Part shown: piece by piece, positions 15,149 through 62,940 of the stretch
Position numbering within the stretch: position 1 is the first letter of the stretch
How the letters are laid out: each line of letters starts with the position of its first letter
NCBI GenBank assembly: GCA_015956445.1
Contig: WIUZ02000008.1
Span: 868,001 to 932,000 of the forward strand
Source of the DNA: Thelephora terrestris
Taxonomy: Eukaryota; Basidiomycota; Agaricomycetes; Thelephorales; Thelephoraceae
Reading direction: 5' to 3'
Length of the DNA: 64,000 bases
Program-made: the position numbers and the translations under genes
The notes under the pieces: generated by a model
Seen by the model: the letters and a program-made list of their open reading frames with translations, nothing else
Database searches by the model: none
What the model was told of the DNA's origin: nothing

Positions 15149-18100
15149 CTACTGGTATCGACTATTCTTCCTAGCACCACCGACAGATGAAGCAGATGAG
15201 GCTCGTGCACGCTTGTCACCAGTTGTTACCTCTTCAAGATCATCAGAATTCATCACGTTGTGTGTCTCCCGAAACAACCCCATCCCTTCCAACGCAACTT
15301 TCATGGACTCCGTCTCCTTGAGTGAGATATGGATTTGAGAAAGAAAGTCGAGCGGGATTTTCTCCCCGGGGTGCTGAGTTGCCATGTGTACAACCGCATT
15401 ATATTTCCAAATGAAATGATCGTCCTGCAACGGAAGGCAGAAAGGGCAGGATATTGGTACGTTCATGCATGGGGATGACTTTGTCGAATTCTTCACCTGC
15501 TCGTAATTGAAAGACGTGAATGCATATCGACAATCGGAGATGATTTTGACATGGTTGTTCCTTGTTCGATCGAGCTTGGTGGCGCAACCTTCCGCACCAC
15601 AGAAACCGCAGGGTTCCACTCCGAGCTAATTACACATTGAGCAGTTGGGAGATGTGGAACACATAAATCACACCTCAATTGGGTTCCGTTCGACCTCACC
15701 ACATATATGACGAAGGATGTGTTGTCCAATGTGTCTGCGCATGCTTCCCAGAACGTAGTTCTTGCAACAAAGTAGGCACGTAATCTTGGTATTTTGTTGT
15801 ATGATTCCTGCATGGGGCACTGTCACGAGGTTGTCCAGAAAGAAGTGTTCGTCGTCTGAAAATCAGATGTAAGGAAAGGGAACTGCACGAGCAAGAGTAG
15901 AGATTACTCACCATCGCTCGATCGGTACGGCAACTCATTAATAGACAATGAGGTGAGAACCTTGAGGGCCTCATCGAGATGCGCCGGGTATTGTTCCTCC
16001 ACGAGTCCCCACAACTGAGAGAGCGATTCATCGAGCAGACCCTCCTCGAAAGCCCACGTAAATGGTTGCGGTGGCTGATTGTGCACGAGTGATGAGTCAC
16101 AGAGTGTTGGACAGAGTGGAATGATGAGCCATGCAGGGAACGAAAACGAAGATCGCTTGACTGTCAACTTGGAGTTTGATGATTTTGTTTTACCAGAATT
16201 TGTCAGATAGTTGAGAGACCATGCCCAGGAAGAGTTGTCGGGATCGTCGGCGCATCGCAAGGGGTGAATTTCCAGAACCTCTCCAGTGACCGTGAGATCT
16301 CCAGTTCTCTGCTCAAGCATCTCCATAGCAACGCGATCGATACGAGATTTCTTGTGTACGAATCCAACGATGTGAATGACCACAAGGCAGACTCGTTGGC
16401 CAAGACGAACGAGGGTAGCAGCGAGGTCCCCAACAATGACAGAATTGTCACCACTAAGGACGTCTGTGATATTTGGGTTCCGTGCCTCACGAAGGGACTC
16501 GAGGGTGACGCCCCTTGCACGGAGTGTCCTCTCAACAACCTTCTTGGCACGGTGACCACCTCGTAGGTAGGAAGCCACAACAGAGCCTTTGTAGTATTGT
16601 TTTCTGTCTGGGCCGTCAATGAATAGCGTAGCAGGAGGGGATTGGGATGGTTGATCAGGTGAATTGGAGAGAAAATCCTCAAGGTTAACGTTCGCGGCAC
16701 GGGCGGTCATGCCGGTCGTTTCGTCGGTTTCTTCGTTCTCGTCATCCAGTGTCGTGATGTCAGCAGGGTCTGATGTGTTGGCGCCATGTTGGGGGGTGTC
16801 GATGTCGTCATGATGCTCGTATTCAGCAAGGGAGTCAGTTGTTGATGTCCCAACATACTTTCCCTCAGGCCGCAAAAGGTCTGCCTTAGTTTTGGGGTTC
16901 CGAAAGAGTTTGTTGAAGTCGGTGGCAGCTTGTTCTCCGAAGTAGTTCACAAGGACCTTGTTTGCTTCGTTCTGTGCCGTGACCCACAAAGCCTGGATGT
17001 TGACAGATCCAGAGATGACATTTCCGAGGCAAGACTTTGGATTGACGTGATCGACTCCAGTTGCATTGGTTAGGTTCAATCGCCTGTGGCCGCGATTGAG
17101 TTCAGGGTTACGAAGGAAGATGCTGTTGATTGTAGATGCCGTTGCAAGTTTCTGTGATAATTGGAGGAGGTCAAAGTTGCGGCTATGGTCCTGTGTCCGT
17201 ACATCACTGAAAACTTGCTCCAGTCGATCAGTCCCGTCGAGAATGATGTAGAAATTTTGGGTCGAGTCAAGTATTTGCTGTTTGGCAAGTGAGAAAATGA
17301 TATTCTTGACAATGGCTTGTGTATCGGCATAGAGTGCTCCGGTCATGAAAGAGTTTCCGTGTCGAATCCAACAAATGCAAATGAGGTGCGCGTATTTGAC
17401 CAACGAGATAATCTGTTGTTCGAGGGATAGGTTGACATCGATGAACGGGTAGAGGAAGCTGGAAATGACCTCTCTGAGGAAGTGGAATCGACGGAGATCA
17501 GCCTGTTCAGATGGGGGTAGGTGATCGAGGGGGATTTGACGAAGATCACAGATTGCCTGGAGAAGTGCAACGGCCTTTGGGACATTCTGCTTGTCGGCAG
17601 GGTCAAGGAGCTGACACGCCTTGTTTTCCGGGATCCCACGTAATTCCACAAGAAAGCGAAGGAGTTGATGACGATTGCAAACACCATCCCAGACCTGAAA
17701 CCCATCGCGTGCACGGATTTGTGTTGCAAAACCTAACAGACCCGGTGAGTTTTGTGAAAGATAATTCAGGTGCAAAGACGTATGTTTGAAAGCATGCTTG
17801 TAGTCTGCAGTCATCGTGATATCTCCGGGACCAGTATGAAGATTTATTCCAGCGAGACGTGACAACTTCAATCCAAGAGAAGAGGAACCCTGGACCTCGT
17901 GGTCCATGCAGAGTTGGAACCGACTGTTCCGGAGAGATGCTTCCCCGTCACTTGCAACTGACCAGATCGGGCCATTGCAAGCTGCACCATACGGGTCAGA
18001 TTCCCAAGCTGTAATAACCCGCCGTAACCACACCGCACAATGCTCACCGGTCTCGCTGCCACACTTGGTTGAGACAACGAGCGGGATTGCTTGATAATGG

Positions 18101-18909
18101 TCCTGCCGGTGAGCAGCAATTGCTACAACGGATGCCTCAGAGCCAAAGTGTAGAGAGGGGTCTTCGCAGTGAACAAGGTCTGCAAGGTATTCAATAGCGG
18201 CCATCCCGGTGATGCGGCGGTCCACTCCAGCACTGTGTTCGCGGCAGAATCCAACAACCTCGTTAGTTTCTCGGTTGTAACACCCTCTCTCGTCAACCGC
18301 AACTCCGTCAATCAACAGAGAATGCCCACATCTTGGAAGCAGAGGTCGCTGCTCTGGGCAAAAAAACGAGGCAATATTTGATGAGACCTCATCGGCGGTA
18401 GGAACTGATCCAGAAGGAAGAAGGCGGGGGATAGCACGATGGTTTGTGATAGTCCGATAGGCAGGGAGGCCATGCGAACGACAGAGAGCATAGAGGAGCT
18501 TGGGTCCACCGAGTGATTTGGCGAGGAAAGCGATGTCAAGTTCTCGTTCGGAATAGTTGCCACGTGCATTGTATAATCCATCTATGGCCTGTTCGACACG
18601 TATGATGATTGCGGCAACGCTGCAGCCACGTTTGAGTGCAACCCCGAGAACACATTTGAGTCGCTTGACATCATTCAATGCGAGGATCTTGAGGAGACGT
18701 TGGTGGTCGTTCACATTACGTTGTTTTGTGGTAAGCTGGCGGGATAGCGCTGCATTCTATTGCAATTGTAAGCGCAATGTATTTATATCCTGGTGATTTT
18801 AATTACCTTCAAACGTGCTTCATTAAGCATCTTCCTCAGTGACTTGGGGATTCCGGAAAGCTGACGAAACGCAAGCAGGTGGTATGGGGTATGGGGTGGA
18901 GCATACTGT
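15149..18909 (-). CDS. Transposase-like protein, catalytic body and C-terminal zinc fingers
   Basis: The long exon (18756-15912) encodes about 950 residues of a protein family that I recognise as multicopy in Agaricomycete genomes. A short upstream exon (18909-18807) is joined by a 50-nt intron. Two 3' introns (15911-15856, 15673-15626) lead to the stop at 15149. Candidate catalytic acidic residues lie in SLLIDGVAVDER, WSVASDGEASLRN and TADYKHAFKH, a D...D...D/H layout reminiscent of P-element/THAP9-type RNase H-fold transposases. The C-terminal exons carry Cys/His clusters CLLCC...RRHIGQH, CGFCGAEGC and CPFC...HMATQH, probable zinc fingers. The N-terminal part lies beyond the palindrome at 22475-22567 and 29611-30342. 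The disruption implies that this copy is inactive. Other possibility: a captured host protein rather than the element's own transposase. Confidence 0.65.
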
Positions 18910-19273
18910 GCTCGCTCAGCTGTGGTAGTTACATTACTGAGTAAAGTGTGATAACTGGTCAGATTTCACCCTCAAAGTTATCATGATAACTTTGAGTACT
19001 GCTCAACCCATACTCACCCACTGTTTTGGGTTGATGGGAGAGGTCCCAATTAGGCAGGTGCCGAGGGTGTGGATTGCCTGGGAGTCTGGGTGGGTTTCCT
19101 TTTTGGGAATATCCCAGAAAGGAAATATTGATGGCTTATGTAAGCAATGATGGGAAACAGAATAGATGGAATGTCTATAAAAGGAAATACTATAAAAGGA
19201 AATACCATAAGAGGAAATTTGATGGATTACATAATGGGATCATGTGACTTCCTAAAAAGGAAATTTTACCTGG

Positions 19274-19470
19274 TATGTTATTTTTACCAAATATGTTATT
19301 TTTACCAAATATGTTATTTTTACCAAATATGTTATTTTTACCAAATATGTTATTTTTACCAAATATGTTATTTTTACCAAATATGTTATTTTTACCAAAT
19401 ATGTTATTTTTACCAAATATGTTATTTTTACCAAATATGCTATTTTTACCAAATATTCTATTTTTTACCA
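19274..19470. repeat. 18-bp minisatellite, left arm of TE1
   Basis: About eleven head-to-tail copies of TATGTTATTTTTACCAAA, the last two degenerate. The mirrored array on the right arm has about seven copies (22000-22120). Confidence 0.95.
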
Positions 19471-19804
19471 GATTTGTTATTTTTCTAACTACAGCAATTT
19501 CTAAGTATGAGAACTTCTAAATAGCATAATTTTCAAGGATAGTCACCTTTCAATAAGTTGATTTTCCAACATTACAATTGGAAGGTCTTCATTTCAATGA
19601 GATTTATGTAAACTTTTCTTTGCCTTTTCTACCATATGATAGAATATGGTTCTGTTTGTAGTCATGACCTAACCTAACCTAAACCGACCCTAACTCAACT
19701 TGATTTTGTTTTATCTTATCTCACCTAACCCCTAATCTAATCTAATCTATAAGTGTTTCATCTAATCTACCCAAAATAGTCCACCTGACCTAACCTAACC
19801 TACA

Positions 19805-20020
19805 GTAAATCCAACCCACTGTAAATGTAATCTACCATAAACATAATCTACGGTAAACATAGTCTACAGTAAACGTAGTCTACGGCAAACGTAGTCTACA
19901 GCAAACGTAGTCTACGGTAAACTTAATCTACTGTAAACGTACTCTACCGTAAACATAATCTACCGTAAACATAATCTACCGTAAACATAATCTACCGTAA
20001 ACATAATCTACCTTAAACTT
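19805..20020. repeat. 16-bp array, left arm of TE1
   Basis: Degenerate tandem copies of the type GTAAACATAATCTACC / GTAAACGTAGTCTACG. The mirrored array lies at about 21360-21650 and is longer, mostly through extra GTAGAGTACGTTTACG-type copies. Confidence 0.9.
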
Positions 20021-20260
20021 AACCTAAACCTAACCTAACCTAAACCTAACCTAACCTAAACCTAACCTAACCTAAACCTAACCTAACCTAACCTAACCTA
20101 AACCTAACCTAACCTAACCTAAACCTAACCTAACCTAACCTACCGTCAACGTAAACCTAACCTGACCTAACCTACCCTAAACCTAACCTACTCTACACCT
20201 AACCTACCCTAAACCTAACCTGTCCCAAACATAAACCTAACCTACCCTAAACCCCACCCT
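20020..20260. repeat. CCTAA/CCTAAA telomere-like array, left arm of TE1
   Basis: Mixed pentamer and hexamer repeats (CCTAACCTAACCTAAACC type). They are mirrored as TTAGG/TTTAGG at about 21160-21370. This is not the canonical fungal TTAGGG. Confidence 0.9.
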
Positions 20261-21159
20261 ACAGTAGTCCACCTAACCTTACCTGACCCTGTTCTAAAGT
20301 AGCCTTACCCAACCCAATATGGTCTACTCGACCTAACCTAACTAAATCTATCTGGCCCTGACCTGACCTAACCTGATCTAACCCAGCCTAGCATAACCTA
20401 ACCTAATCTGCAAAAATGTGAACCTAGCTCAACCTATCCTCACCCAGCCCATTAGTATGTAACTTGGTTTATGGGAACACAGGATGAACCACACACTTCC
20501 AAACTACAAGCTGACAATTGCTCAAGTGCATCTACTTTGCTGGACCTACAAGCCAGTGGACCTATAAGCCTATATGCCCACAAACCCATGGGGACCTATA
20601 CTCAGTACATGTGACAAGCCATATTCTGTTCCAGACTGCAACCTGACTGCAACCCAAACTTGTCCACCTAGCTGGACCTATTAGCCAGTTGGTGTATTAT
20701 GGGCCTACAGATCTGTAAGGGTTTGAGTTGATGAGTCCATTAGCCTGCAGGGTGAAAGGGCTTGGGTTGCAGCCAGGTTGCAGTCTGGAACAGAATATGG
20801 CTTGTCACATGTACTGAGTATAGGTCCCCATGGGTTTGTGGGCATATAGGCTTATAGGTCCACTGGCTTGTAGGTCCAGCAAAGTAGATGCACTTGAGCA
20901 ATTGTCAGCTTGTAGTTTGGAAGTGTGTGGTTCATCCTGTGTTCCCATAAACCAAGTTACATACTAATGGGCTGGGTGAGGATAGGTTGAGCTAGGTTCA
21001 CATTTTTGCAGATTAGGTTAGGTTATGCTAGGCTGGGTTAGATCAGGTTAGGTCAGGTCAGGGCCAGATAGATTTAGTTAGGTTAGGTCGAGTAGACCAT
21101 ATTGGGTTGGGTAAGGCTACTTTAGAACAGGGTCAGGTAAGGTTAGGTGGACTACTGTA

Positions 21160-22120
21160 GGGTGGGGTTTAGGGTAGGTTAGGTTTATGTTTGGGACAGG
21201 TTAGGTTTAGGGTAGGTTAGGTGTAGAGTAGGTTAGGTTTAGGGTAGGTTAGGTCAGGTTAGGTTTACGTTGACGGTAGGTTAGGTTAGGTTAGGTTTAG
21301 GTTAGGTTAGGTTAGGTTTAGGTTAGGTTAGGTTAGGTTTAGGTTAGGTTAGGTTTAGGTTAAGTTTAAGGTAGATTATGTTTACGGTAGATTATGTTTA
21401 CGGTAGATTATGTTTACGGTAGATTATGTTTACGGTAGAGTACGTTTACGGTAGAGTACGTTTACGGTAGAGTACGTTTACGGTAGAGTACGTTTACGGT
21501 AGAGTACATTTACGGTAGAGTACGTTTACAGTAGATTAAGTTTACCGTAGACTACGTTTGCTGTAGACTACGTTTGCCGTAGACTACGTTTACTGTAGAC
21601 TATGTTTACCGTAGATTATGTTTATGGTAGATTACATTTACAGTGGGTTGGATTTACTGTAGGTTAGGTTAGGTCAGGTGGACTATTTTGGGTAGATTAG
21701 ATGAAACACTTATAGATTAGATTAGATTAGGGGTTAGGTGAGATAAGATAAAACAAATCAAGTTGAGTTAGGGTCGGTTTAGGTTAGGTTAGGTCATGAC
21801 TACAAACAGAACCATATTCTATCATATGGTAGAAAAGGCAAAGAAAAGTTTACATAAATCTCATTGAAATGAAGACCTTCCAATTGTAATGTTGGAAAAT
21901 CAACTTATTGAAAGGTGACTATCCTTGAAAATTATGCTATTTAGAAGTTCTCATACTTAGAAATTGCTGTAGTTAGAAAAATAACAAATCTGGTAAAAAA
22001 TAGAATATTTGGTAAAAATAGCATATTTGGTAAAAATAGCATATTTGGTAAAAATAACATATTTGGTAAAAATAACATATTTGGTAAAAATAACATATTT
22101 GGTAAAAATAACATACCAGG
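21160..22120. repeat. Mirrored repeat arrays, right arm of TE1
   Basis: Inverse counterpart of the left-arm arrays: TTAGGT repeats, then the 16-bp array, then about seven copies of the 18-bp unit near 22000-22120. Confidence 0.9.
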
Positions 22121-22474
22121 TAAAATTTCCTTTTTAGGAAGTCACATGATCCCATTATGTAATCCATCAAATTTCCTCTTATGGTATTTCCTTTTATAGT
22201 ATTTCCTTTTATAGACATTCCATCTATTCTGTTTCCCATCATTGCTTACATAAGCCATCAATATTTCCTTTCTGGGATATTCCCAAAAAGGAAACCCACC
22301 CAGACTCCCAGGCAATCCACACCCTCGGCACCTGCCTAATTGGGACCTCTCCCATCAACCCAAAACAGTGGGTGAGTATGGGTTGAGCAGTACTCAAAGT
22401 TATCATGATAACTTTGAGAGTGAAATCTGACCAGTTATCACACTTTACTCAGTAAAAGTTAACTACCACTAGTG

Positions 22475-22567
22475 GCTCGCTTCTCGATGATCTTGTACGC
22501 ATCACATTGCGGAATCCATAAACATTGATGGCAGATGCTTCCGTGGCCGCTGAAGCCGATAACCCCA
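22475..22567 (-). CDS. Short coding remnant of the transposase-like gene between two insertions
   Basis: About 93 bp stranded between TE1 and the 7-kb insert. It stays open in the frame of the downstream exon and encodes a CHQC dyad followed by a basic helix (KIIEKRA). In the family as I know it, a C-x2-C pair sits at this spot, just before the APHTP block that begins the next piece across TE1. Confidence 0.6.
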
Positions 22568-24179
22568 AGGCAGTGTCAGCGTGCTGAATTTTTAACCTCT
22601 TTTTAAACCATTTTCACACCCAACTTTCGCCCACTTTCTTTATCTATACCCCTTTCTTATCTTATCACTTCCCTTATCACGACTCACACGCCATCAAGAG
22701 ACGCAGACAAAGGCACAGATGACATTACACACGGACGCGCACACGACAAACAGACAACGGAGTTGAATCCGCCCGGACTCTATGGACGAGGACTAAGGAG
22801 TACAAACCCTAGTTGTCAAGACCTGGTCTGCCAGTACTCCTCAGCACTGGCAATCTCCTCCTCCGTCCCCTCCGAGACATTCTCGTCGATTTCCTCGTCG
22901 ACCATCTCGACGACCCGAGCCTCCTCCAGACGATGAGCTGCGACCAGCTGAACCTCGGCGCGAAGGCGGTTCCTCGCTGAATCGACCGTAGTCTGATCCA
23001 GAGTCCTCTGGACTGACCAGCCCTCCACTCTCTCGGTCAGTTGAGTCACCAGGCGAACGGCCTCCGCTGCACGCTGGACCGACAAGAGCGTAAGGTTCGT
23101 CAATCCGTTCACGTCGACGGACTCCACCGGAATCAACTCGCCGCGATCCACGCGACACTGCAACATCGTTGCGTCGGAATAGGACGGTGGACTCAATGTC
23201 TCCACCCTGGCGGACAGCGTCTGGATTACTGGGCCGCATGCGATGGGCTGGACGAAGCGCCCCACAATAAGGAACCCATCGACGAGCACGGATAGAACGT
23301 TGCCCACGCACCGGCGAGATCGACGGAGGCGGAACCGGAACGGCCACCTCGTTCTCCCCCGCATACTCCAACTCCGGAGAACTACTAACCGGGTTGACGG
23401 CAGTCTCTTCGGACGTCTCGCGGACGACCTCCTCTCCGCCGTCAGTATGCGCGGGTGTGCGGTACGACCCATCGGAAGCTAAAAAGGGATGTCAGTGGAC
23501 AAGACAAATATGTCAACCGACATCCCACCTATGGGAGAAGCCATCCGATCAGGAATCGACTCGTCGCCGGACTCGTCGCGAACCGCAGCCACCGAACGAG
23601 TGCGGCAATGGCACAACCGCTCGCTCATGGACTCGACCCGAGCACCCAGCAACGGCAAGGCGTCGTCCAACGTATCGACCTAGAAGTGGCGTGAGCTCTC
23701 TTGGATGAAGACCAGGAGAAGTCGCACCAACCTTAGTGTCGAGCTCATTCAGAGCCCTTCGGTGACGATTCAGCCGTCGGTCGACCTCGATCAGGTCCCG
23801 CTGAATGGTGTCGTCCCGTTCCTTCAATGACTCCACCAATCGATTGTGTTCCTCGCGCATCGCTAGCATCTCACTCTCGAACGTCACGCGGAGTGTATCG
23901 TTCATCAGAAGAAGTGTTTTCTTCATGTCCAACAATAGCTGCAGCTGAGAAAATATATTTCTCCTAGTTAACAAGCTACCTCAGAAATAAATTTCTTCCA
24001 GTTAAGCCTAAGATTTACATTTGTTATCTTGTGGCATGCCACAATTGTAAATGTGCAATCCCAACCCAACCTATAGCCCATCGTCTCGGTCCAGTGACTG
24101 AGGTGGATCCGTTGTTTTGGAGAGGGTAGTTCCAAATTGGGCTGGTGCCGACAGTATGGGTCTGCTGAGCATTGGGGGC

Positions 24180-24780
24180 TGCTTACATAATAATTGATGG
24201 CTTATATAAGGAGGTCATGTGACTTACCAAAAAGGAGATTTTTGATGGCTTACATAAGCAGATCACATGACTGAAAAAAGTGGATGTTGCTTATATAATC
24301 AGATCATGTGACTGTCCAAAAAGGGAAAGTTTTGATGGCTTACATAAGCAACTCAAAAATGATTTTGGCATTGAATTTCCTTTTTGGGAAATTCTGATGG
24401 CTGACATAAGCAGGTCATGTGACTGAAAAAAGTGGGTATTGCTTATGTAATCAGGTCATGTGATTGACCAAAAAAGGAAAGTTTTGATGGCTTACATAAG
24501 CGTCTCAAAAATGCTTTTGGAGGGGTCTTTCCTAAAAAGGAAATTCCTTTTTAGGATATATTTGATGGATTACCAAAAAAGGAAAGTTTTGATGGCTTAC
24601 ATAAGCAGCACAAAAATGCTTTTGGCAAAAATTACCAAAAAGGGAAATTTCCTTTTTAGGAAAGACTTTCCAAAAAAGGAAATTTTGATGGCTTACATAA
24701 GCAACTCAAAATTGCTTTTCGAAAAAATTACCAAAAAAGGAAATTTCCTAAAAAGGAAATTTTATGCTAAAAAGCTCGGA
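24180..24780. repeat. GATGGCTTACATAAGC motif array, left arm of TE2
   Basis: About seven spaced copies of GATGGCTTACATAAGC (some TATATAAG or TGACATAAG), alternating with GTCATGTGAC-type palindromes and self-complementary AAAAGGAAATTTCCTTTT blocks. Mirrored at about 27240-27810. Confidence 0.9.
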
Positions 24781-25135
24781 AAAATCCCAAAAAATAACAA
24801 GAAAATTCCCACAGGTCTAGAAAGTGCCCAAAATGGTCAATTAATTCCCAAAATATCGAAAAAATGGTTTTTCTGGCTGGATAAATCCGGAAAAATTCCG
24901 AAAAAATTACCAAAAATTCCAGAATATGTATAAATATTTTATAAAAATTATTCTATCTTTTTTAGTCCATTAAATAGCCCACAATTTCGATATTAATGTA
25001 TTTTCTGCCCCTAAAAATTCCCAAAAAATAAATGAAAGTTGAAAAATAAAAATAAATTTATAGTCTTCATTATATCATAAAGTACAGACCTGTTTGTGGT
25101 CATAATCTACCCCCAAAACCAGTCATAGAATTAAC

Positions 25136-25440
25136 CTAACCTAACCCTAACCCTAAACCTAAACCTAAACCTGCCCTAAACCTAACCTAACCTAACCCAA
25201 CCTAAACCTAACCTAACCTAACCTGACCTAACCTAAATCTGCCCTAAACCTAACCTGCCCTAAACCTAACCTGCCCTAAACCTAACCTGCCCTAAACCTA
25301 ACCTAACCTAACCTAACCTAACCTAACCTAACCTAACATAACACAACCCTGAACCTAAACCTAACCTAAACCTAAACATAAACCTAAACCTAACCTAAAC
25401 CTGACCTAGCACAAAGCCTAAATCTAAACCTAACCTGGCC
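25136..25440. repeat. CCTAA/CCTAAA telomere-like array, left arm of TE2
   Basis: Long run of CCTAACCTAA and CCTAAACCTGCC units, followed by TTATC repeats to about 25500. Mirrored at about 26475-26880. Confidence 0.9.
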
Positions 25441-26474
25441 TTATCTTATCTTATCTTATTTTATCTTATCTTATCTTATCATGTCTTATCTTATCATGTC
25501 TTACCCAACCTAAACCTAACCTAACCTAACCCAGCCTAGCCTAACATGACATAGTCCACTCAAATTAGTCCACCACAGATCACCCAACCTAACCTGAAGT
25601 GGCCCACCTGACCAGTCTGAGGCAACTTGATTTGATCTTATCTAATCAGCTGCTATCTTATCTAACCTTAATTCATATACCCTAGCTAACCAACATCTAA
25701 CCCAATCTCACCTGGCTCACCAGCACATAACTGGGCTACAGAAACGCACTGCGAGCTGCACCATCCATATCCTATGTCCAATCGTCACTCAAGCACAAAA
25801 ACTGTGGTGGACCTACAAGTCAGTGGACCCATAAGCCCACAGGCCCACAGCTATAGACTGCTCACTCAGTGTTGACATTTGTTATCCAACCTCATCCACA
25901 TACCACCCTCACCCTGCAGTCTGTACCAGACTGCAACTTCATCACTACTGAAATTCAACCACCTGGCTGAACTTGCAAGCCAGATTGATATAGACTACCA
26001 GTTATGCATCCATGGATTTGTAGGCCTGAGAGTACATGAGTTCAGCCAGGTGGTTGAACTTGAGTTGTGGTGAGGTTGTAGTCTGGCACAGAACACAGGG
26101 TGAGGGTGGCATGTGGATGAGGTTGGATAACAAATGTCAACACTGAGTGAGCAGTCTATAGCTGTGGGCCTGTGGGCTTATGGGTCCACTGACTTGTAGG
26201 TCCACCACAGTTTTTGTGCTTGAGTGACGATTGGACATAGGATATGGATGGTGCAGCTCGCAGTGCGTTTCTGTAGCCCAGTTATGTGCTGGTGAGCCAG
26301 GTGAGATTGGGTTAGATGTTGGTTAGCTAGGGTATATGAATTAAGGTTAGATAAGATAGCAGCTGATTAGATAAGATCAAATCAAGTTGCATCAGGCTAG
26401 GTCAGGTGGACCACTTTAGGTTAGGTTGAGTGATCTGTGGTGGACTAATTTGAGTGGACTATGTCATGTTAGGC

Positions 26475-27810
26475 TAGGCTGGGTTAGGTTAGGTTAGGTT
26501 TAGGTTGGGTAAGACATGATAAGATAAGACATGATAAGATAAGATAAGATAAAATAAGATAAGATAAGATAAGGCCAGGTTAGGTTTAGATTTAGGCTTT
26601 GTGCTAGGTCAGGTTTAGGTTAGGTTTAGGTTTATGTTTAGGTTTAGGTTAGGTTTAGGTTCAGGGTTGTGTTATGTTAGGTTAGGTTAGGTTAGGTTAG
26701 GTTAGGTTAGGTTAGGTTTAGGGCAGGTTAGGTTTAGGGCAGGTTAGGTTTAGGGCAGGTTAGGTTTAGGGCAGATTTAGGTTAGGTCAGGTTAGGTTAG
26801 GTTAGGTTTAGGTTGGGTTAGGTTAGGTTAGGTTTAGGGCAGGTTTAGGTTTAGGTTTAGGGTTAGGGTTAGGTTAGGTTAATTCTATGACTGGTTTTGG
26901 GGGTAGATTATGACCACAAACAGGTCTGTACTTTATGATATAATGAAGACTATAAATTTATTTTTATTTTTCAACTTTCATTTATTTTTTGGGAATTTTT
27001 AGGGGCAGAAAATACATTAATATCGAAATTGTGGGCTATTTAATGGACTAAAAAAGATAGAATAATTTTTATAAAATATTTATACATATTCTGGAATTTT
27101 TGGTAATTTTTTCGGAATTTTTCCGGATTTATCCAGCCAGAAAAACCATTTTTTCGATATTTTGGGAATTAATTGACCATTTTGGGCACTTTCTAGACCT
27201 GTGGGAATTTTCTTGTTATTTTTTGGGATTTTTCCGAGCTTTTTAGCATAAAATTTCCTTTTTAGGAAATTTCCTTTTTGGTAATTTTTTCGAAAAGCAA
27301 TTTTGAGTTGCTTATGTAAGCCATCAAAATTTCCTTTTTTGGAAAGTCTTTCCTAAAAAGGAAATTTCCCTTTTTGGTAATTTTTGCCAAAAGCATTTTT
27401 GTGCTGCTTATGTAAGCCATCAAAACTTTCCTTTTTTGGTAATCCATCAAATATATCCTAAAAAGGAATTTCCTTTTTAGGAAAGACCCCTCCAAAAGCA
27501 TTTTTGAGACGCTTATGTAAGCCATCAAAACTTTCCTTTTTGGTCAATCACATGACCTGATTACATAAGCAATACCCACTTTTTTCAGTCACATGACCTG
27601 CTTATGTCAGCCATCAGAATTTCCCAAAAAGGAAATTCAATGCCAAAATCATTTTTGAGTTGCTTATGTAAGCCATCAAAACTTTCCCTTTTTGGACAGT
27701 CACATGATCTGATTATATAAGCAACATCCACTTTTTTCAGTCATGTGATCTGCTTATGTAAGCCATCAAAAATCTCCTTTTTGGTAAGTCACATGACCTC
27801 CTTATATAAG
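26475..27810. repeat. Mirrored arrays, right arm of TE2
   Basis: Inverse counterparts of the TTATC, CCTAA and GATGGCTTACATAAGC arrays of the left arm. Confidence 0.9.
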
Positions 27811-28686
27811 CCATCAATTATTATGTAAGCAGCCCCCAATGCTCAGCAGACCCATACTGTCGGCACCAGCCCAATTTGGAACTACCCTCTCCAAAACAAC
27901 GGATCCACCTCAGTCACTGGACCGAGACGATGGGCTATAGGTTGGGTTGGGATTGCACATTTACAATTGTGGCATGCCACAAGATAACAAATGTAAATCT
28001 TAGGCTTAACTGGAGAAATATATTTTCTCAGCTGCAGCTGCTGATGTCCAACGCCTCTGAGTACATCCTACGGGCGTCGTCCTTCGCTTCCTTCACCTCG
28101 CGCTTCAGTCGCTCATTCTACAGCCAATCAGTGTTATCCCACAAGCGGGATGCACAGATCGACTCACCGCTTTCTGTTCCGTCCGCAGAAGGAACCAAAG
28201 GCGGTGACCAACAGCAGCTGTGTAGTGTTGGGAACGAGTCGCCCCCGGCCACCTTCCTTCGCCATTCCCCAAGTCGTAGATCCCCATTCGCAGGAGCCCC
28301 CACAACGACGAAGCCACCGGAGTCTCATACGGCATGCGTAACTCGGTGTTGAACGTTACCCCTCGCATCGACTCTTGCAGCTTGTGGTCGATCAAGTTGT
28401 GATACCACAACTCGTCGTCCATGGTCAGATAGCTGGGAGGCTTGACGATCGTCGCCTCCAGTTGTCGAGCATCCACCTTGTCGGCCGTTGCGAAGATCTG
28501 CAAATGCGATGTCAGTTGTTGCCAGCAAAACGGCGACACGTGACGTCGCACCTCGCGATAGCTGGGGTACGCCACATTGGCGTTGGGCAGGAAGTAACTC
28601 TTGTTCTGTACGGACCGAGGATCCGCAGACTCGATGGTAGCAGTGCTGTTCTCAGCACGGAAGACACGGTCGGAAATCATGGGCAT

Positions 28687-29602
28687 GATGAATGGTTGGT
28701 TGGTGGAAGTGTTGGTTTGGAAGAAGGGAGTTTGATGGACCCAACGGCCGGTTCGCGCTACGCTTTATCCGACCATCGACAGCGCTCACGTCCTATTTGC
28801 CATTGGATCGGACCATCGTTTCACCGGTCCAAACTCCCCATACATTCGTCCTCAACATTCAAGCCCCACTCAGTCTTTCGTTGTCCCGTTCGGACGAGCT
28901 GACGCGTCGTCCTCTTATTGGTCAGTCTTCACATGTGATATTATCCTTTGTCATTCCTTTCCCACACGACGTCATGACCCCTTTCTTATTCTCTCATGAA
29001 CCCCGACCCATTAGTCATTCCTTTATTATTTCTATTCTATAACCCGGGCCGCTTACTGTTCTAGCTTACTCTCGGCCCTTCTCTGCTCTGAGTTATTATT
29101 AGATAGGGTTATCTATGTCCCGGCCGCTCCCCTATATAGGTACCAGTAGAGTAGCTGAGGACTCCCCATCTTTGATATCTCGGGAAGTCCTCTTCTCCTT
29201 GCAGCATCGGTGTATTTGCTGTAGGCCACTGAAGAGCTTATCGAGTAACTCTCTGAACACGTTCGCTCTCCTCTCTCTCTCAGCCTTGCGTTAAGAATCG
29301 GCGAACGCGCTTACGAAAAGGAGTTCCTCGCCGCTCTCTTAATCAAGCACCAGTTTGAGGCGCCATCCTCGGGCTCTTGTATCCGCCCTCAGAAGACGAT
29401 AGGGGTTTACCTGATAGAGGCTCGGCACTCCTGCTGTGAATTCGGACAACCTACCGGAGAACGCTCATCCATCGTGTTTGGACCACGTAGACTTTGGGTG
29501 GATATAGGGAAGTCGTTCCCCCTTTGCCCCATTGTTTCTTGTTGGTTGGAGTTGCGACTCACCAACAGCACTGGTACCTGAAGGGCGAAGAGTGGCCCTG
29601 AC
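28687..29602. promoter_or_regulatory. Upstream region of the coiled-coil gene with promoter-like words
   Basis: No coding frame. On the minus strand CCAAT lies at 28917-28921, about 230 bp upstream of the coiled-coil ATG. On the plus strand CCCTATATAGG lies at about 29129-29139, followed by pyrimidine-rich runs. That pattern also resembles an LTR promoter, so a solo LTR fragment is possible but its ends are not visible. Confidence 0.3.
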
Positions 29603-29610
29603 AGGCAGTG

Positions 29611-30408
29611 CTTTGAACGTAAACAAAGGTGTGATGGAGGGCGGAAATCGATGATATCCCATGGATGGTTCACAAACGAGTGACTCGGGAAGGGGTATGT
29701 CTCCCAAATCGTGCCTGGTGTCCACTGAATTAAAACACCAGAACATGGAAGAGACGTGGCCTCATGGGGCCGAGGCGAATATAGGATGATTGTTGAAGAT
29801 GGAAGGCCATCAGACGGCGGGTCGACAGAAATGGCAGGATTCGTGCCGACGCAACCCGCGGCGACAGTCGGTTGGACAGAAGTGGGCGGACGAGTGTTGA
29901 CGTCTGATCCAGCATCAAAAAATGATGAGGTGAGAGGGGAAGTTGGTGAATTCGTTGGACTGGGGGTAGGGGAGAGAGACGGATGGAGGGGACCTCCAAT
30001 GATAAGAGGAGAAAGAGAGGCAGATCGATGCCTTCCACTTGATGCCGTGGTCATTGAGGGCACAGCTGAGAGCAGCGTTGTCTGCCCTGACAATCTGGAT
30101 GCAGATTTGAGGTTTTTCTTGTGGCAGGATGCGACGTGCAGGTCATAAGAGTGGAGAGAACCGTTCCTGCCGAGTCCAATAACCTTCGAGCAGATCTCGC
30201 AAGGACGACCATGTCCCATCGTGCCATCCCGCAGAAGTTTAGGAACGACGGGGTAGGATACCACAGAGGGGTTCGTGTTGAAAACCGAGACATGGATTCC
30301 TGACGACGAGCCATTAGAAGGGTCAATACGACTGGAGGACATTGTGGTAGGTCTGATAGGAATGGGTGAACCTGAGTCTTTTATCCGAATTTCCACCACA
30401 CAGAGCAT
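29611..30408 (-). CDS. N-terminal part of the transposase-like gene
   Basis: Open frame with candidate starts at 30408 (MLCVVEIRIKDSG) and 30342 (MSSSRIDPSNGSS). It carries a Cys/His cluster CEICSKVIGLGRNG...HVASCHKK, a probable BED- or C2HC-type DNA-binding finger, then a long Ser/Pro/Thr-rich linker. After that comes GVLIQWTPGTIWETYPF and a C-terminal LCLRSKHC, the conserved N-terminal block of the mushroom family described for 15149-18909. The block breaks at the AGGCAGTG octamer and the frame resumes on the other side of the 7-kb insert. Beyond 29611 the frame runs on into unrelated insert sequence to 29407. Confidence 0.6.
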
Positions 30409-30556
30409 GTCACCTAGTCCACCTGGCAATGGAAACACGAGTTCGTTGACCAAGAGTGAAGTATCCGATGGACGGGATGATAAGGAAGCGAGGAGTTAGA
30501 GGTAAAGAAGGGGACGAACCACCCTTCCGTTTTAGGCAATGCGGGTTTCACCGCTT

Positions 30557-38892: not shown

Positions 38893-41800
38893 ATGTTCAA
38901 GAAGCGACGTTCAACGAGTTTTGAGGCCACTGGGAGTAATCAAAATCCGGGCAGCGGGCGTGGGTTATTCATATTCGGCTGAAATACAGCGATTTGACGG
39001 ATTTGTGTCTGCTAGGAACGAAGCAGAGAATCAGCGATTGCGCGAAAACGCTCCTCGATACCGCGAAAGAGTCCGCAGATGTGTGTATTCCTCTCAAGCC
39101 CATCCTTGGAGGAGTGAGCGCTCTCGTCAAGCATTATGAGGTGATCGCCGAGCCAATAATCATTACCCGAAGCTGACGAGGTCTGCACACAGCAATTTGA
39201 AGATGTCAAGGAAAAGGTTGAAGAATTGATACCTTTGTTGAATAGGTTCAAACAAGATATCGCCACTGCGACGGTTGAAGGAGACCCCGAGGAGACAAAT
39301 CGGCGCCTGGGCTTGATTAGGTAAATCCGTGCTGCGAACGATGCCGATCATGACCAACGCAACTCTAGAAAATTCAAAGAGATCGAAGACTTATCCGAGA
39401 AGCTGTCAGCAAAGGGTTCCATCACTCGATTCGTCGACAGAGGGGAGGACTCCAAACTGGTGGCAAGGCTCATCGAGCGATTCCGAGAGACCATTCTTTA
39501 CTATCAAGTCGGTTATTATTATTACCCACAGTCGGGCATTGTTGACGGCGGGGCCAGATCTCTCAACAGCAAGGGATCTATCGTCAAATTAATCATCTCA
39601 CAGTGAGATTACTCCATCTTGTCCACGTATTTGGCACCAACTGACCTGTTTCCAAGTCGTCGTTCGGTACACTCTTGAAGCTTCAGGAGGTAACTCGCTC
39701 CTGGCAGCCTGCTTGTCACTGCACTCGCTCACAAATGAACAGAAACCTCTAGCAGTGAGGATCAAGCTGGAATCCGTCGTAGCGCAGTTGAATAGACTTA
39801 GGGATGCCCCCTGGAAAGAGCTCCAGCATGAGCGGTGGGCGAAGCTGTTCGAGTAAGGAGCTAAAATAACCCATCGACGGGCGTGCTAATTCCCCTGCTC
39901 AGTGATCTCAGACCCATCAAGGACAAGGCAACGTGCTTCTACGAGCACTTGATGGCCGAGGGGTACGTCGAGGGCGAAGGGGACATTGTAGCTGTATCCG
40001 AATTAGCGGAAGGCCTCCGGGATGTCCTCCTTGGGTACCAGGTCCGTATCCGGGAGCCGGTGCAACGATCTGATTACTAAAATTGGTGCTTGGACAGACG
40101 GTGCAACAGCAGGAGATTTACAATCAGAATTGTAGGCTGATAGTAAGTTACACAGCTATTTCTCTAAAAATGTGACTGGCCTAAATGTATTTCTAGGACG
40201 CAGGTTAGACTTTGTTCCCCGGTTTCTCACTGACCGACTCACACGTCTTTGCAGCTGACCTGTTGGTGTTGAACAACTGTCTTCGTGCACGAGGAGCTGA
40301 ATATCGTCACGGCGACCGCCGTGGTTGCCTCAAAGGAACTCGAGACACCGTGCTCGCCGAGATCGAGTCATGGGCCAAGGACTTCACCAAGTCTCCTGTC
40401 TTCTGGCTGAACGGGCTTGCCGGAACCGGGAAATCTACGATCGCTCAAACCATTTCCGAGCGTGTCTTCGCTGAAGCCCGCCTCGGAGCGTCCTTCTTTT
40501 GCTCACGCGACTTTGAGGACCGCAGCAATCTCCGCTCCATATTCCCCACCATTGCCTTCCAGCTGGCACACAAATACCCCGACTTTCGATCCCACCTCGT
40601 CCCCCTCCTACGGTCGAATCCCGATGTTGCACACGAGCCGCTTTACAGCCAGATGCAGAAGTTGGTCGCAGAGCCGCTTCGTGAAACGGGGATTTCGACG
40701 GTGATCGTGATCGACGCCCTCGACGAATGTAAGGACGATGAGCCATCCTCTGCGATCCTATCTGTTCTGGGGCGGTTCGTCGGGGACATCCCCAAAGTCA
40801 AGTTCTTCATCACTGGCAGGCCTGAGCCCAGGATCAGGACCGGATTTCGCCTTCCTCTCCTCGTGGACTCGACCAATGTCTTCGTGCTTCACGACGTTCA
40901 CCCCTCCCTAATCAACAACGACATACGGCTTTACCTAAAGCACGAACTTTCTGAACTCGCACAGCGGCGTCGGCTAGAGCGATGGCCAAGTGATGAACAC
41001 ATCGACCTGTTGTGTCATCGAGCCGCTGGCTTCTTTGTCTATGCTGTTGCGACCGTCAAGTTCTTGAGTAGTACCATTCACCTCCCAAAAAAACAACTAG
41101 GCGTCATCTTGAAGCTTCCGGAAAGCACAGCACCCGAGGGCAAGACACGGTACAACCCGAACACCACACTCGACTCCCTGTACACATCAATCCTCGAAGC
41201 GGCTATCAGCGATGCGGACCCCGAAGTGGATTCCAGGGTCCGAACTACCATTGGCACAATCATTTTGGCTGTAAACCCCCTTCCACCCCTGGCCATCGCG
41301 GAGCTGATGAGTCTGGACCCCGAGGAGGTCATCCTATTCCTCACATGCATACAGTCACTGCTTTCCATGGGCGAGGATCCCAACCAGCCTATCAAACCCT
41401 TCCACAAGTCGTTTCCAGACTTCATCGTCGATCCCTCTCGTTGTGCCAACCCAAGGTTTCGCATCTCCCCAGAGCACCTACACCATGAACTCGTAACAAA
41501 CTGCCTGAGAATAATGAACGATGGGTTAGAACAGAACCTTCTATCGCTCCCTGCATATTCCTTAAATTCGGAGGTGAAAGATCTACAGACCAGAATCAAC
41601 AACCGGATTGGGATCGCCTTGCAGTATGCCTGCCAGTCCTGGCATAGCCATCTTGTCGAGACCAGGGAGGGTATCACAGGTGTCATCTCCTATCTGACTA
41701 TTTTCCTGAAGAATAATTTCCTAGCCTGGTTGGAGGTACTTAGTGTCCTTGGGGAAGTAGGGGGAGCCGCCGTTGGATTGGAAAAGCTGATGACCTGGTT

Positions 41801-43694
41801 ACAGAAGGTTTGGTTCTCTTCTCTCTATTGTCACATCCGACGCTAAAGTAGCTCAAATTAGGTCTTCCAGGATGATAGCCTTCTGGACATCGCCCAAGAC
41901 TGTTTCAATTTTGTGACAAAGTTCTTCGAACCCATCAAAGTCTCCGCCACCCACGTTTACCACTCTGCGCTGGAACTATGTCCTATGTCGTCTATTGTCC
42001 GAGGGCTGTACTCCCACCGGTGCCAACCCCTTGATCCCTCCCCAAGAGTCGTCATCGGAGCTCCTCGCTCGTGGAACCAGGCGATATCCATATCCAACAA
42101 GGATCGCGAACACGGATTCTGCATCTGGTCACCATGTGGTCGGTTTGTTGCGACGCAGACAGCAGAAGCAGTCGAGATCCGGGATCAACTCACGTTCCAA
42201 TTACTCAACACCCTACAACCTGCAGAAGCGACCCATCCGCTGACGGGCCCACTTGCCTATTTACCCGATGGATGTTCCCTTGCCTGTGTCGCTGGAACCT
42301 CCGTTGTGATCTGGGACATACAGACAGGTGGAGTGGCCAAAGAGTTTGAGTGTGGCTTCAAAAGTACCTCAATGGTGTGGTCATTGGATGGAGGAAAGAT
42401 TGGATTCTTCGACTCCCAGAAGAATGTCTACACATACGACCTCGCTTCGAGTACGATACTATCCCACGAAAAATCCTGGTCGGAAGGTAACCAATACCTT
42501 TGGGCACAAGAAAAGTCTTTCGGGATCCTCACAGTGGTGCCAGGCAGTTCCAATTCCCCGACTAGAATCGAATTCTTCGAGGTTGGACGCACTCTTGTCA
42601 GGACCCAATCATTATCCACGTGGAACTGTTCCATGACCGAATCTCAATACATTCCAGAGGTCTCCTACTCCCCGGTCACTCGTCGTTTCTCTGTTTCTTC
42701 TGATCGTACGCTCCACGTCTTTGATCTGGAGAGTCGCTTTTTAGACGAAGTTGGTCTCTACACTTTTCACTGCTTCTCTTCCGATGGAACACTTTTTGCT
42801 GCTGCCACCACATATGATATTCGTGTTTGGAGGCTTCGTAAAGATAGAGGGACTCGCTCTTCCGTGATATGGAAGAGATTCTACTGTCCGGGCCCGACCC
42901 TTTTCCTTCAATTCTCCCCAACTCAATTTTCGATCCTGGGCCATGTTAAGGGGATTTTCCACGGGTGGCGTTTGCATGACCGTCCCACTCCCACAACCGA
43001 CCGTCTATTCCATGCAGGACTTCCCCACTCCCGGAATTATGTTGCAGTTGCCTACAAGTCGGAAAGCACTGTCACGATCATCAACCTCCGTTCACGGGCC
43101 CCTTCTCGGTTGATCGAAACCGGTGTGGAGATAGAGGCTTTGGTCGTCACCGGCAACGTACTTTTGGTGTTGGGTTGGCAAAAAGTTGTTGGCTGGTTGC
43201 TTACGGAAGAGGGACTGGTAGGCGGGGTATCCGATGGTAGGAATGCCGGCCCTGGTGACAGCATTTGGGCCGTGTCACTATCTCATTCTGAATACGCACC
43301 GATCTTCAAGGTCGAAGGCCAGGTTGGGATGATTGCACCCGACAGAGATTCTCCGAGATATTTCATCTATCACACAGAGACTGGGAAGGTTCTCCCGCCT
43401 GACCAAGTGCCTCAACATTCCAGCAGTCCTGGAAAAACCCTTGGACATGTACCCTGGAATCAGGACTCTCTTGGCTTCCACAATCTTTCCCAACAGAAAT
43501 CTTCCCCAGAAAGCAGCTGGCAGACCTTAGAGGTCACGTGGGTGAGGGATCCAGAAGGGAAACACAGGCTATGGTTACCTGTCGAGTGGAGGTCATCGTG
43601 GGTTCCCATGGAATGGCGCCAGGGCATTGCAACACAGCTTGGCTTTGTTGGCATTGAACTTGTTATCCTCAAGTTTTGGTTAGGATCCCTCTAG
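38893..43694 (+). CDS. NACHT-WD40 (STAND NTPase), copy 1
   Basis: Start MFKKRRSTSFEATG at 38893. Several short exons follow (39017-39139, 39200-39320, 39365-39510, then small ones to about 40210) encoding a helical N-terminal region with QRISDCAKTLLDTAKESAD and FEDVKEKVEELIPLL. A large exon (about 40255-41810) holds the NACHT domain: P-loop GLAGTGKSTIAQ, Walker B VIVIDALDECKDD and sensor FFITGRPEPRIR, then helical repeats. An intron (41811-41866) leads to the last exon, with degenerate WD40-like blades (HGFCIWSPCGRFVATQ, SVVIWDIQTGG). STAND proteins of this layout are signal-sensing switches: ligand binding by the repeats opens NTP-driven oligomerisation, linked in fungi to non-self recognition and programmed cell death. 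The effector N-terminus is not a type I recognise. Confidence 0.88.
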
Positions 43695-49471: not shown

Positions 49472-52400
49472 ATGCTTAGAAAGCGACGTCCAACAGCTTC
49501 TGGTACCCCTGGGGATAATCATGGTACGACTGGAGGTAAGCCTAGTATTCATCCCCGGCGAGACTAATCGACGAATCCGCATCTTCCAGCAAAGAAGCAA
49601 AGAGTCGTCAGTTGTGTGAAGATGCTGCTCGATATCGCGAAAGAGTCTGCAGATTGGTTCCCTCCCCTCAAGGCCGCCCTCGGAGGAGTGAATGCGCTCA
49701 TCAGCCATTTTGAGGTATTTGTTGAATCAGTGGCCGTCGCGCACAACTGAAGCGATCGCCCGCAGCAATTCAAAGACGTCAAGGATAAGATCCAGGAACT
49801 TTTACCGGAGTTGGATAGGCTCAAACAAAACTTCAGCACTGCAACGCTGGACGGAGATCCCGAGGAGAAAAATCGGCGCGAGGAATTGGTTAGGTGCGCA
49901 TCCGTCGATGTTCAGTTACCCCCCTCCAAACTGTCGTTCCAGAGCATTAGAACAGATCGAAGAAGAATCCAAGAACCTGTTGTCAAAGAACCCCTCCGCC
50001 CGTTTCGCGGACAAGGAGGAGGACTCAAAAGTAGTGGCAGGTCACATCGAGCGACTTCGAAAAGCCATAGTCTGCTATAAAGTAAGTTATTATTATTCCC
50101 CGCATCGAGTGTGGTTGACGGCCGGACTAGATTTCTCAACAGCAATCAATCTACCGTCAAATCACCCATCTCACAGTAAGACTACCCCTTGTTGTCGATA
50201 GGATGACTAGCAACTGACCTATTTCCTAGTCGTCGTTCGATACACTCTTGAAGCTCCAGGAGGTAACCTGCTGTGCCCCCTCGTCATCGTATCCGCTCAC
50301 GAATGATTAGAAACGTCCGGCAGTGACCGTCAAGCTAGAATCCATTGTGGCACAGTTGGGTAGACTCGAAGATGCCCCCTGGAAATCGGAGTTCCAGCAC
50401 GACCGATGGGTAAAGCTGTTCGAGTAAGCAACTAAATAACCCCACCGGCGGGCATGCTGATATCCCTTTCAGTGATCTCAGGCCCATCAAGGAAAAGGCG
50501 AAGGCGCTCCGCGAACGCGTAACAGCCGAGGGACACGCGAGTGATGAAGGGGACATTGTGGCCGTATCTAAATTGGCGGACGACCTCCGGGATATCCTCC
50601 TCGAGTACTGGGTTAGCATCCAGAACGCCGAAACAACCGTTTAGTCGCTGAAGCAGTAGTTTTTGGACAGATGGCTCAACAACAGGCAATTCATGATCAG
50701 AACTGTAGGCTGATAGTAAGTCACGAATCTAGTGCTCCAAAGACCCAACTGACCTAAATGTACTTCTAGGACGCAGGTCAGACTTTGTTACCCCGTTTCT
50801 CACCGCCTGACTCACCTCTTCGCAGCCGACTTGTTGGTGTTGAGCAACTGCCGTCGTGCACAAGGAGCCGAGTACTGTCACGGCGACCGTCGTGGTTGCC
50901 TCAAAGGGACGCGGGACACTGTGCTCAGTGAAATTGAAACATGGGCCGAGGACTTCGACAAGTCACCTGTCTTCTGGCTGAACGGGCTTGCCGGAACAGG
51001 GAAATCCACAATCGCTCAAACCATTTCCGAACGTCTCTTCGCTGAAGCCCGCCTCGGAGCGTCCTTCTTCTGCTCGCGCGACTTTGAGGACCGCAGCAAT
51101 CTCCGCTTCATACTCCCCACCCTGGCATTCCAGCTGGCACACAAATACTCCGACTTTCGATCCCACCTCGTCCCCCTCCTACGGTCGAATCCCGATGTCG
51201 TACACGAGTCGCTCTACAATCAAATGAAGAAGTTGATCGCGGAGCCGCTTCAGGCGGCGAACATTTCGACGGTGATCGTTATTGATGCCCTCGACGAATG
51301 CAAAGATGACGAACCGTCGTCTGCGGTCCTATCCGTTTTGGGGCGGTTCGTCGAGCGGATCCCCGAAGTCAAGTTCTTTATCACTGGCAGGCCCGAGCCC
51401 AGGATCAAGACCGGATTTCGTCTCCCTCTCCTCGTGGACTGGACCGATGTCTTTGTTCTTCACAACGTTCCTCTCTCCTTAGTCAACGACGACATACGGC
51501 TTTTCCTGAAGCATGAACTTTCGGAACTCGCACGGCGGCGTCAGCTAGAGCGGTGGCCAAGTGATGAACACGTTAACGTCTTGCGTGACAGAGCCGCTGG
51601 CCTCTTTGTGTATGCCGTTGCGACTGTTAAGTTCTTGGGTAGCAATATCCACCTCCCAAAAAATCGACTGGCTGTCATCTTGAAGCTTCCGGAAAGTACA
51701 ATCCCTGAGGGCAAGACACGGTTCAACCCGAACACCACACTCGATTCACTGTACACATCAATCCTCGAAGCGGCCATTGGCGAGGGGGACCCTGATGTCG
51801 ATTTCAAGGTCCGAACTACTGTTGGCGCCGTCGTCTTGGTTGTAAATCCCCTTCCACCACCCGCGATCGCGGAGCTCATGGATCTGGACTCCGAGGAGGT
51901 CATACTTTTCCTCACAAAGATACAGTCGCTGCTTGCCATAGGCGAAGATTTCAGCCAACCCGTAAAACCCTTCCACAGGTCATTTCCGGACTTCATCACC
52001 GATCCCTCTCGTTGCGCCAACTCAAGATTTTACATCTCCCCTGAATACCTACATTGCGAAATCGTGACGAACTGCCTGAGAGTAATGAACGACAGGCTGG
52101 AACAAAACCTTCTATCACTCCCTGAATATGCCTTAAACTCGGAGGTCGAGGATCTACAGTCCAGAATTGAGAATCGAGTTAGCAGCGCGTTGCAATATGC
52201 CTGCCGGTCCTGGCACAACCACCTCACCACTTCCAGGAGAGATTTTACCGATGTTACCACCTACCTACGCACTTTCCTGGAGAAGAATTTCCTAGCCTGG
52301 TTGGAGGTACTCAGTGTCCTTGGGGATGTAGGGGGAGCCGCCATTGGATTGGAAAAACTGATGAGCTGGCTACAAGAGGTTCGCTTCTGTGCTCTACATC

Positions 52401-62936: not shown

Positions 62937-62940
62937 TGAA

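Follow-up and report, generated by a model that had tools for sequence, protein, structure and literature searches.

We analysed a 64,000-nucleotide stretch of the genome of Thelephora terrestris (assembly GCA_015956445.1, contig WIUZ02000008.1, positions 868,001 to 932,000), called the window below, which carries at positions 18917-22474 a large palindromic element, TE1. The element consists of two complementary arms of ~1.75 kb, the left at 18917-20675 (forward strand) and the right at 20744-22474 (reverse strand), enclosing a 68-nt loop (20676-20743). The 7-bp target-site duplication GCTCGCT flanks it on the left (18910-18916) and on the right (22475-22481). Its termini are of the CA..TG type (CAGCT.. 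/ CACTA..). The L-type terminus, CAGCTGTGGTAGTTA (18917-18931, forward strand), is common to an element found elsewhere in the genome, E, and to other ends linked to KDZ transposases; the R-type terminus, CACTAGTGGTAGTTA, lies on the reverse strand at 22460-22474, and the last bases on the forward strand, ending at 22474, are TAACTACCACTAGTG.

From tip to loop, each arm contains a 26-bp palindrome, an 18-bp tandem array, a 16-bp tandem array and an AACCT/TTAGG array, all arrays being given on the forward strand. In the left arm these are a perfect palindrome with TTATCATGATAA close to the L end (18971-18996), 11.7 copies of the 18-bp unit (19274-19484), 12.4 copies of the 16-bp unit (19828-20026) and a telomere-like AACCT/AACCTAACCTAAACCT array showing the C-rich strand (20016-20250). 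The right arm mirrors this order, with a telomere-like TTAGG-type array showing the G-rich strand (21169-21366), 17.9 copies of the 16-bp unit (21356-21641), 7.7 copies of the 18-bp unit (21977-22115) and a perfect 26-bp palindrome close to the R end (22393-22418).

Complementarity between the arms was 99% over 460 nt for the outermost pair (18934-19393/21996-22455), 97% for the next (19323-19711/21750-22138), 89% in the tandem-array section (19705-20107/21355-21757) and 97% for the innermost pair (20053-20675/20744-21366), whose arms are separated by the 68 nt of the loop. Global alignment of one half against the other gave 96.7% identity over 1705 aligned columns, plus 148 gap columns that fell mostly in the tandem arrays, chiefly as three runs of 72, 37 and 6. 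A preliminary description of the window had placed TE1 at exactly the coordinates given here and about 97% of it within the arms. The latter figure holds for length, 98% lying between the arm limits (all except the loop); strictly paired bases are fewer (identical pairs hold 92.7% of the element), because the tandem arrays differ in length between the arms. The same description had called TE1 devoid of coding capacity, in agreement with its four open reading frames of at least 60 aa, every one of which crosses the 18-bp repeat, so that the open frames are translations of repeats only. Rfam gave no match to TE1. With inverted arms making up most of its length and with internal tandem repeats, TE1 has the make-up of a foldback element. 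Foldback (FB) elements carry tandem subrepeats in their arms and have 9-bp duplications.

TE1 copies and their two tips

Searching the genome (40.6 Mb in 60 contigs) with TE1 DNA returned at least 255 matches (40 of 339 candidates scored). Twenty loci were read out and the window copy was added, giving 18 two-ended copies; L026, L027 and L030, of which a single end was read, and L028, which has no TE1 end, are outside this set (loci are designated L and contigs C). The 18 copies each lie at a different place and are 3.1 to 6.8 kb long. Miniature inverted-repeat transposable elements are short non-autonomous elements of under ~800 bp, and this label was rejected for TE1 on the length of its copies. 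An exact 7-bp target duplication flanks nine of the 18, and L012 has a 7-bp duplication with one mismatch; agreement at 6 or more of the 7 bases is expected by chance at 0.0013 per copy, given equal base frequencies. In 17/18 copies the two tips are unlike, one being of the L type (CAGCTGTGGTAGTTAC) and the other of the R type (CACTAGTGGTAGTTAAC, with a single base changed in L024), and all ten copies with an exact or near-exact duplication have this L and R combination. The remaining copy, L014, has two L tips and no target duplication. The earlier proposal that something had mobilised TE1, made from its defined ends and target duplication, is thus borne out by GCTCGCT on both sides and by the duplications of the other family copies.

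Assembly is hard in such regions. Copy L026, at the end of C23, has the same 500-bp left flank as L016 (C12:2820790), at 99.6% identity, and C23 stops inside the copy, which suggests either that the assembly broke at a palindrome or that the locus is truly duplicated. On such grounds TE1 might be thought an artefact, one arm having been duplicated in reverse where hairpins hindered assembly. Against this stand the 18 two-ended copies, the ten copies with 7-bp duplications, arms that are unlike in array length and tip sequence, and the empty sites known for E and for TE2, a second foldback in the window. The chance that TE1 is an artefact is negligible, and the two-ended copies rule this out for the family, although single rearranged copies may be artefacts.

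Three unique arm segments (outer, mid and inner) were compared in 18, 18 and 16 copies, L018 and L024 being omitted from the inner segment because some of their arms matched less than 80% of it. The mean difference between arms was 0.5%, 0.1% and 0.3% within a copy versus 2.8%, 4.6% and 2.4% between copies. In L021 the arms differed by 0% in all three segments, and the nearest other copy was 3.0%, 8.5% and 3.5% away. At the tips, L and R differ inside the first ~24 bp and agree from there to position 60 in 17 of the 18 copies, with one extra differing site within the first 60 bp in 6/17 L/R copies. The simplest reading is that arm-to-arm gene conversion within a copy would keep the arms near-identical and that the homogenised part would end ~24 bp from the tips, L/L or R/R products being presumably unable to transpose. 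That transposition needs both an L and an R end is suggested by the absence of a target duplication from the L/L copies, L014 for TE1 and one on C13 for TE2. These two copies are also what might be expected if near-identity were instead acquired at birth from half an element, for example through a hairpin intermediate copied at each transposition, and a within-copy difference near zero even for diverged copies would fit such an origin. However, full copying of a hairpin would yield L/L or R/R ends, yet 17/18 TE1 copies are L/R, and the arms of the window copy are unequal in tandem-array length. We therefore regard half-element birth as unlikely, while giving it some weight, and favour gene conversion in place. 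The L/R asymmetry that survives homogenisation points to sequence which the transposase must tell apart, and makes end recognition by KDZ transposases testable.

Two copies on C25 have exchanged duplications, CCCCCTT/CTCTACT for L023 (C25:25992-29298) and CTCTACT/CCCCCTT for L022 (C25:42027-45902). In the inner segment, the left arm of L022 equals the right arm of L023 and the right arm of L022 the left arm of L023 (distance 0.000, versus 0.007 otherwise). Each TE1 copy being a palindrome, copies could recombine in either orientation, and judging from these sequences L022 and L023 seem to record an inversion by ectopic recombination. The pattern is like that of inversions caused by Galileo in Drosophila, which combine opposite orientation, exchanged duplications and chimeric copies (PMC2775673; this and the other papers cited here are drawn on for their accessible portions).

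Element E, a relative encoding a KDZ transposase

A genome-wide search for the TE1 ends and a search for autonomous relatives with these ends beside a transposase had both been suggested in the preliminary description, and both were productive. The exact end CAGCTGTGGTAGTT occurs at 27 sites, 21 of them in TE1 copies and six outside. Allowing one mismatch gave 37 matches (27 exact) versus 42 for the reversed pattern, and allowing two in a 15-base pattern gave 297 versus 1250, among the matches listed; four of the ten one-mismatch sites were examined. Only exact ends were counted, because mismatched end matches were not above chance. All six sites outside TE1 were read, and they have the same tip followed by different subterminal sequence. 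A KDZ match lies within 30 kb on the inner side at 6/6 of them, 0.044 being expected at a random point, and its strand points inward from the end at five of the six.

Using the DNA to the left of the KDZ gene on C22 as query revealed a host repeat broken exactly at the start of an R-type end. Element E occupies G000:C22:9847-22400 (12,554 bp) between copies of the target duplication CTCGCCC, its ends reading CTCGCCC-CACTAGAGGTAACTAACTTTTACTGAG on the left and CTAACTACCACAGCTG-CTCGCCC on the right, and its inverted repeats are 92.5% identical over 442 aligned columns. Its transposase has Pfam matches to CxC2 (1.4e-35) and KDZ (6e-37 and 6.4e-8) in neighbouring forward frames. An empty site at C59:825910/825911, where the joined flanks are identical at 153/153 positions to the uninterrupted repeat with a single CTCGCCC, identifies E as a precisely inserted transposon. 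E and TE1 have the same two distinct tips, L and R, and share a TGATAA..CATGATAAC arrangement over ~80 bp; alignment between them was confined to the ends, at 80% identity over 105 columns, 79% over 102, 78% over 107 and 76% over 85. TGATAA motifs were found in 10 of 13 ends compared. Because the match is limited to the terminal ~105 bp and the arm interior is not E's, TE1 does not derive from E by deletion alone. The next-best loci to the E transposase DNA, on C58 (76-82%), C23 (69-71%) and C13 (70%), all have E-like ends.

Other candidate ends were set aside. Sites with CAGCTGCGGTAGTT on C3 and C19 were rejected as element ends since the outer flanks shown are identical too; the sites lie inside a larger repeat, and the nearby KDZ genes were therefore dropped as evidence. 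A further end, K2, has the same first 60 bp and different flanks at C22:7014 and C59:815149, and was left out of the KDZ evidence, since the KDZ gene there belongs to E, which sits inside the C22 copy of K2. C22:7014-22400 was rejected as a single element, having no common duplication.

These data suggest that TE1, as a non-autonomous foldback transposon, is cross-mobilised by a Kyakuja-like transposase of the KDZ superfamily; we assign this reading a probability of about 0.87. Carrying a CxC2 cysteine cluster and a KDZ domain, the E-type transposase would recognise a pair of unlike ends, L (CAGCTGTGGTAGTTA) and R (CACTAGWGGTARYTA), the subterminal TGATAA motifs probably belonging to its binding site, and would excise TE1 and insert it with a 7-bp stagger. 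The KDZ transposase is encoded by the same-tipped relative E and not by TE1 itself, which without coding capacity is therefore at most a non-autonomous KDZ member. Transposons of other superfamilies have comparable features: rust fungi have hAT7 families with 7-bp duplications (PMC12730594), and Galileo, of the P superfamily, combines 7-bp duplications with long repetitive terminal inverted repeats (TIRs; PMC2775673). An origin of TE1 from a 7-bp hAT, MULE or P/Galileo-type element, with convergent likeness to the ends of E, is nonetheless very unlikely, as E has both the L and the R tip of TE1 and the TGATAA..CATGATAAC arrangement. Moreover, Pfam matches across the genome, for the three superfamilies searched, numbered 125 for KDZ (PF18758), three for hAT (PF05699) and two for MULE (PF10551), and on these numbers hAT and MULE were rejected as mobilisers of TE1.

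Several observations weigh against mobilisation of TE1 by a KDZ transposase, or against parts of that reading. The sequence common to E and TE1 is just ~105 bp per end, at 77-80% identity, so that a closer partner may exist. Kyakuja elements are described as having no TIRs (PMC12730594), while E has TIRs of 442 bp and TE1 is TIR over nearly its whole length; E was placed in KDZ by its domains, the Kyakuja-like assignment being drawn from duplication length and termini, and the mobility of TE1 is read from sequence. The 30-kb limit for KDZ matches was fixed after the distances (4 to 29 kb) were known, and the random expectation is too low because transposons cluster; KDZ proximity is therefore support and not a formal test. 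The DNA search with the E gene did not return the KDZ matches that lie close to the ends on C7 and C37, and TGATAA is absent from 3/13 ends (C7 and both TE2 tips). The transposase is directed towards the L end in E and away from it in C58, C23 and C13, a difference that might stem from inversion of the interior between long TIRs. Eight of the 18 TE1 copies lack a duplication of their own (L010, L011, L013, L014, L016, L021, L022 and L023); two of these pair up exactly (L022 with L023), and cross-comparison otherwise gave five one-mismatch rows, from three copy pairs, which is about chance level. A copy's own arms were strictly closest in just 6/18, 7/18 and 4/16 copies for the three segments; in the remainder a recent sister copy was equally close or a few sites closer, and the largest reversals occurred in the outer segment of L011 (2.8% within versus 1.6%) and L014 (1.9% versus 0.8%). 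On C25, the arm evidence amounts to ~3 sites of the inner segment, with all four arms identical in the outer and mid segments, and a false assembly inversion could also give swapped duplications on this short contig (128 kb).

Comparison with known transposons

Kyakuja, a KDZ lineage of Agaricomycotina, has 7-bp duplications and CA..TG termini (PMC12730594). TE1 has both, as well as termini common to a KDZ-encoding element, and E has the KDZ domain. Published Kyakuja elements, in contrast, code for proteins and have no TIRs, whereas TE1 is non-coding and almost entirely inverted repeat, and neither TE1 nor E shares the lack of TIRs reported for Kyakuja of Laccaria. The KDZ1, KDZ2 and KDZ3 elements of Cryptococcus neoformans (~9-11 kb, TIRs of 139-241 bp; PMC12810828) resemble E (12.6 kb, 442 bp) in transposase, size and presence of TIRs, but have 8-bp or 4-8-bp duplications and CxC1 in place of CxC2, and no foldback relatives are mentioned in the accessible part of that paper. 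CxC2 precedes intact KDZ transposons in Pleurotus (PMC7641404).

Foldback architecture like that of TE1 occurs in FB elements, Tetris and Tm1, which belong to superfamilies other than KDZ (PMC4079207, PMC3169594). Galileo shares more with TE1: 7-bp duplications, long internally repetitive inverted repeats that are near-identical within a copy, inversions with exchanged duplications, and chimeric copies (PMC2775673, PMC3573991, PMC3688188). It belongs to the P superfamily and to another kingdom, and the likeness is taken as convergent. A foldback form of a KDZ or Kyakuja element was not found among the matches listed in the literature searched, outside which most subscription papers lie, and what is accessible of the Laccaria transposon survey (PMC3411680) and of the Marasmius paper (PMC9674265) contains nothing on one. 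The earlier statement that no named fungal family of this architecture is known is weakened by E, a protein-coding relative, as the ends of TE1 place it with KDZ transposons. TE1 is a real and recurrent mobile foldback element that has kin, and is best explained as a non-coding variant of the KDZ/Kyakuja kind working like Galileo. Such an assignment would give a giant foldback element, hitherto without a class, a place in the KDZ superfamily, some transposons of which carry TET/JBP genes in fungi. It also suggests that the lifestyle of Galileo, with its 7-bp duplications, long repetitive near-identical arms and swapped-duplication inversions, evolved separately in a fungus that uses a different transposase.

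Processing of TE1 hairpin transcripts by Dicer is plausible, the genome having two Dicer_dimer matches and the arms being 96.7% identical. The foldback form might accordingly be kept for silencing, hairpin transcripts of TE1 copies supplying Dicer with double-stranded RNA directed against KDZ elements or against other copies; Mu killer, a maize locus, offers a parallel for silencing by a hairpin transcript. We consider such a function improbable, since the copies retain both tip types and their target duplications, as would be expected under selection for transposition, and since, with only ~105 bp per end in common with E, small RNAs could scarcely act on its transposase gene. A silencing role is compatible with mobilisation by KDZ.

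Neighbouring foldbacks and telomere-like arrays

The second foldback, TE2 (23933-28044), has CA..TG-type tips and AACCT/TTAGG arrays, and is flanked by the 7-bp target duplication TGTCCAA (23926-23932 and 28045-28051). Its tips are of two kinds, CAATAGCTG and CAGCAGCTG (CAATAG.. / CAGCAG..), the right tip of the window copy having one extra A. TE2 lies within a separate DNA transposon (22574-29603) with TGTCAG..CTGACA ends and the 5-bp duplication GGCAG; a TE2-free copy of this transposon, with duplication GTAGG, lies inside TE1 copy L024, where the empty site of TE2 is preserved. Open frames in this host transposon had no Pfam match. Five of seven two-ended TE2-type copies (window, C45, C25, C14 and C59:778-781) have 7-bp duplications, and two, on C13 (L/L ends) and at C59:815-817, do not. 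Since the tips of TE2 differ from those of TE1 and have no TGATAA, its KDZ link is weaker and draws only on duplication length and CA..TG termini; no KDZ element with TE2 tips came to light, though no search was aimed at one. TE2-type foldbacks at C13:~551615-559910 and C25:~50075-57210 seem to be inserted in KDZ transposase genes, and by eye their flanks resemble the QA.YMPG motif of E's frame. A third, TE2-like foldback starts near the right edge of the window (~62300-64000). L030, on C8, is a composite in which a TE1-type R end (~120 bp) is joined to flank and to a foldback matching those at ~62300-64000.

Telomere-like repeats are abundant in the genome, with at least 1095 occurrences of a (TTAGG)7 pattern, overlapping matches counted. 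A (TTAGGG)4 pattern occurs 45 times, in 32 tracts, none near a contig end; there are 13 pairs of tracts at most 10 kb apart, 13/13 of them ordered C-rich then G-rich, and six single tracts. Foldbacks in this genome thus seem regularly to contain telomere-like repeats that point outward. No telomeric repeats were found in 20 contig-end stretches from 12 contigs. The end of C11 (L028) consists of ~930 bp of nearly pure (TTAGG)n. TTAGG is possibly the telomere repeat of the species, which to our knowledge would be unusual for a fungus. For C26 and C30 (L077), C26 showed tandem units of ~10 kb that each contain an array of AACCT type similar to the one in TE1; Rfam gave no match in 2.5 kb of C26, part of which is N.

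More speculatively, these elements may represent a whole class of palindromic transposons that rewrite themselves, KDZ-driven in at least one family. Their cores would be like a small linear chromosome, C-rich on the left and with G-rich TTAGG/TTAGGG on the right, pointing outward, and their arms would copy each other except for the last ~24 bp. Telomere proteins might bind the arrays, or the arrays might descend from an ancestor that was linear and capped by telomeres; the palindromes would be hot spots at which recombination in either orientation reshapes chromosomes. We hold this wider proposal to be improbable.

The frames beside TE1 and TE2 (15907-18756, 22819-23478, 22844-23491, 28108-28764 and 29410-30495) gave no Pfam match. 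Further along the window are two similar NACHT (NPHP3_N) and WD40-type gene pairs, at 40209-43691 and 50753-54226, ~10 kb apart and apparently a local duplication. Other protein matches were to an F-box-like sequence and a copia element, which, like the NACHT and WD40 proteins and the many KDZ matches, fit a mushroom-forming basidiomycete; identical short motifs recur at 46987/60647 and 48458/61605.

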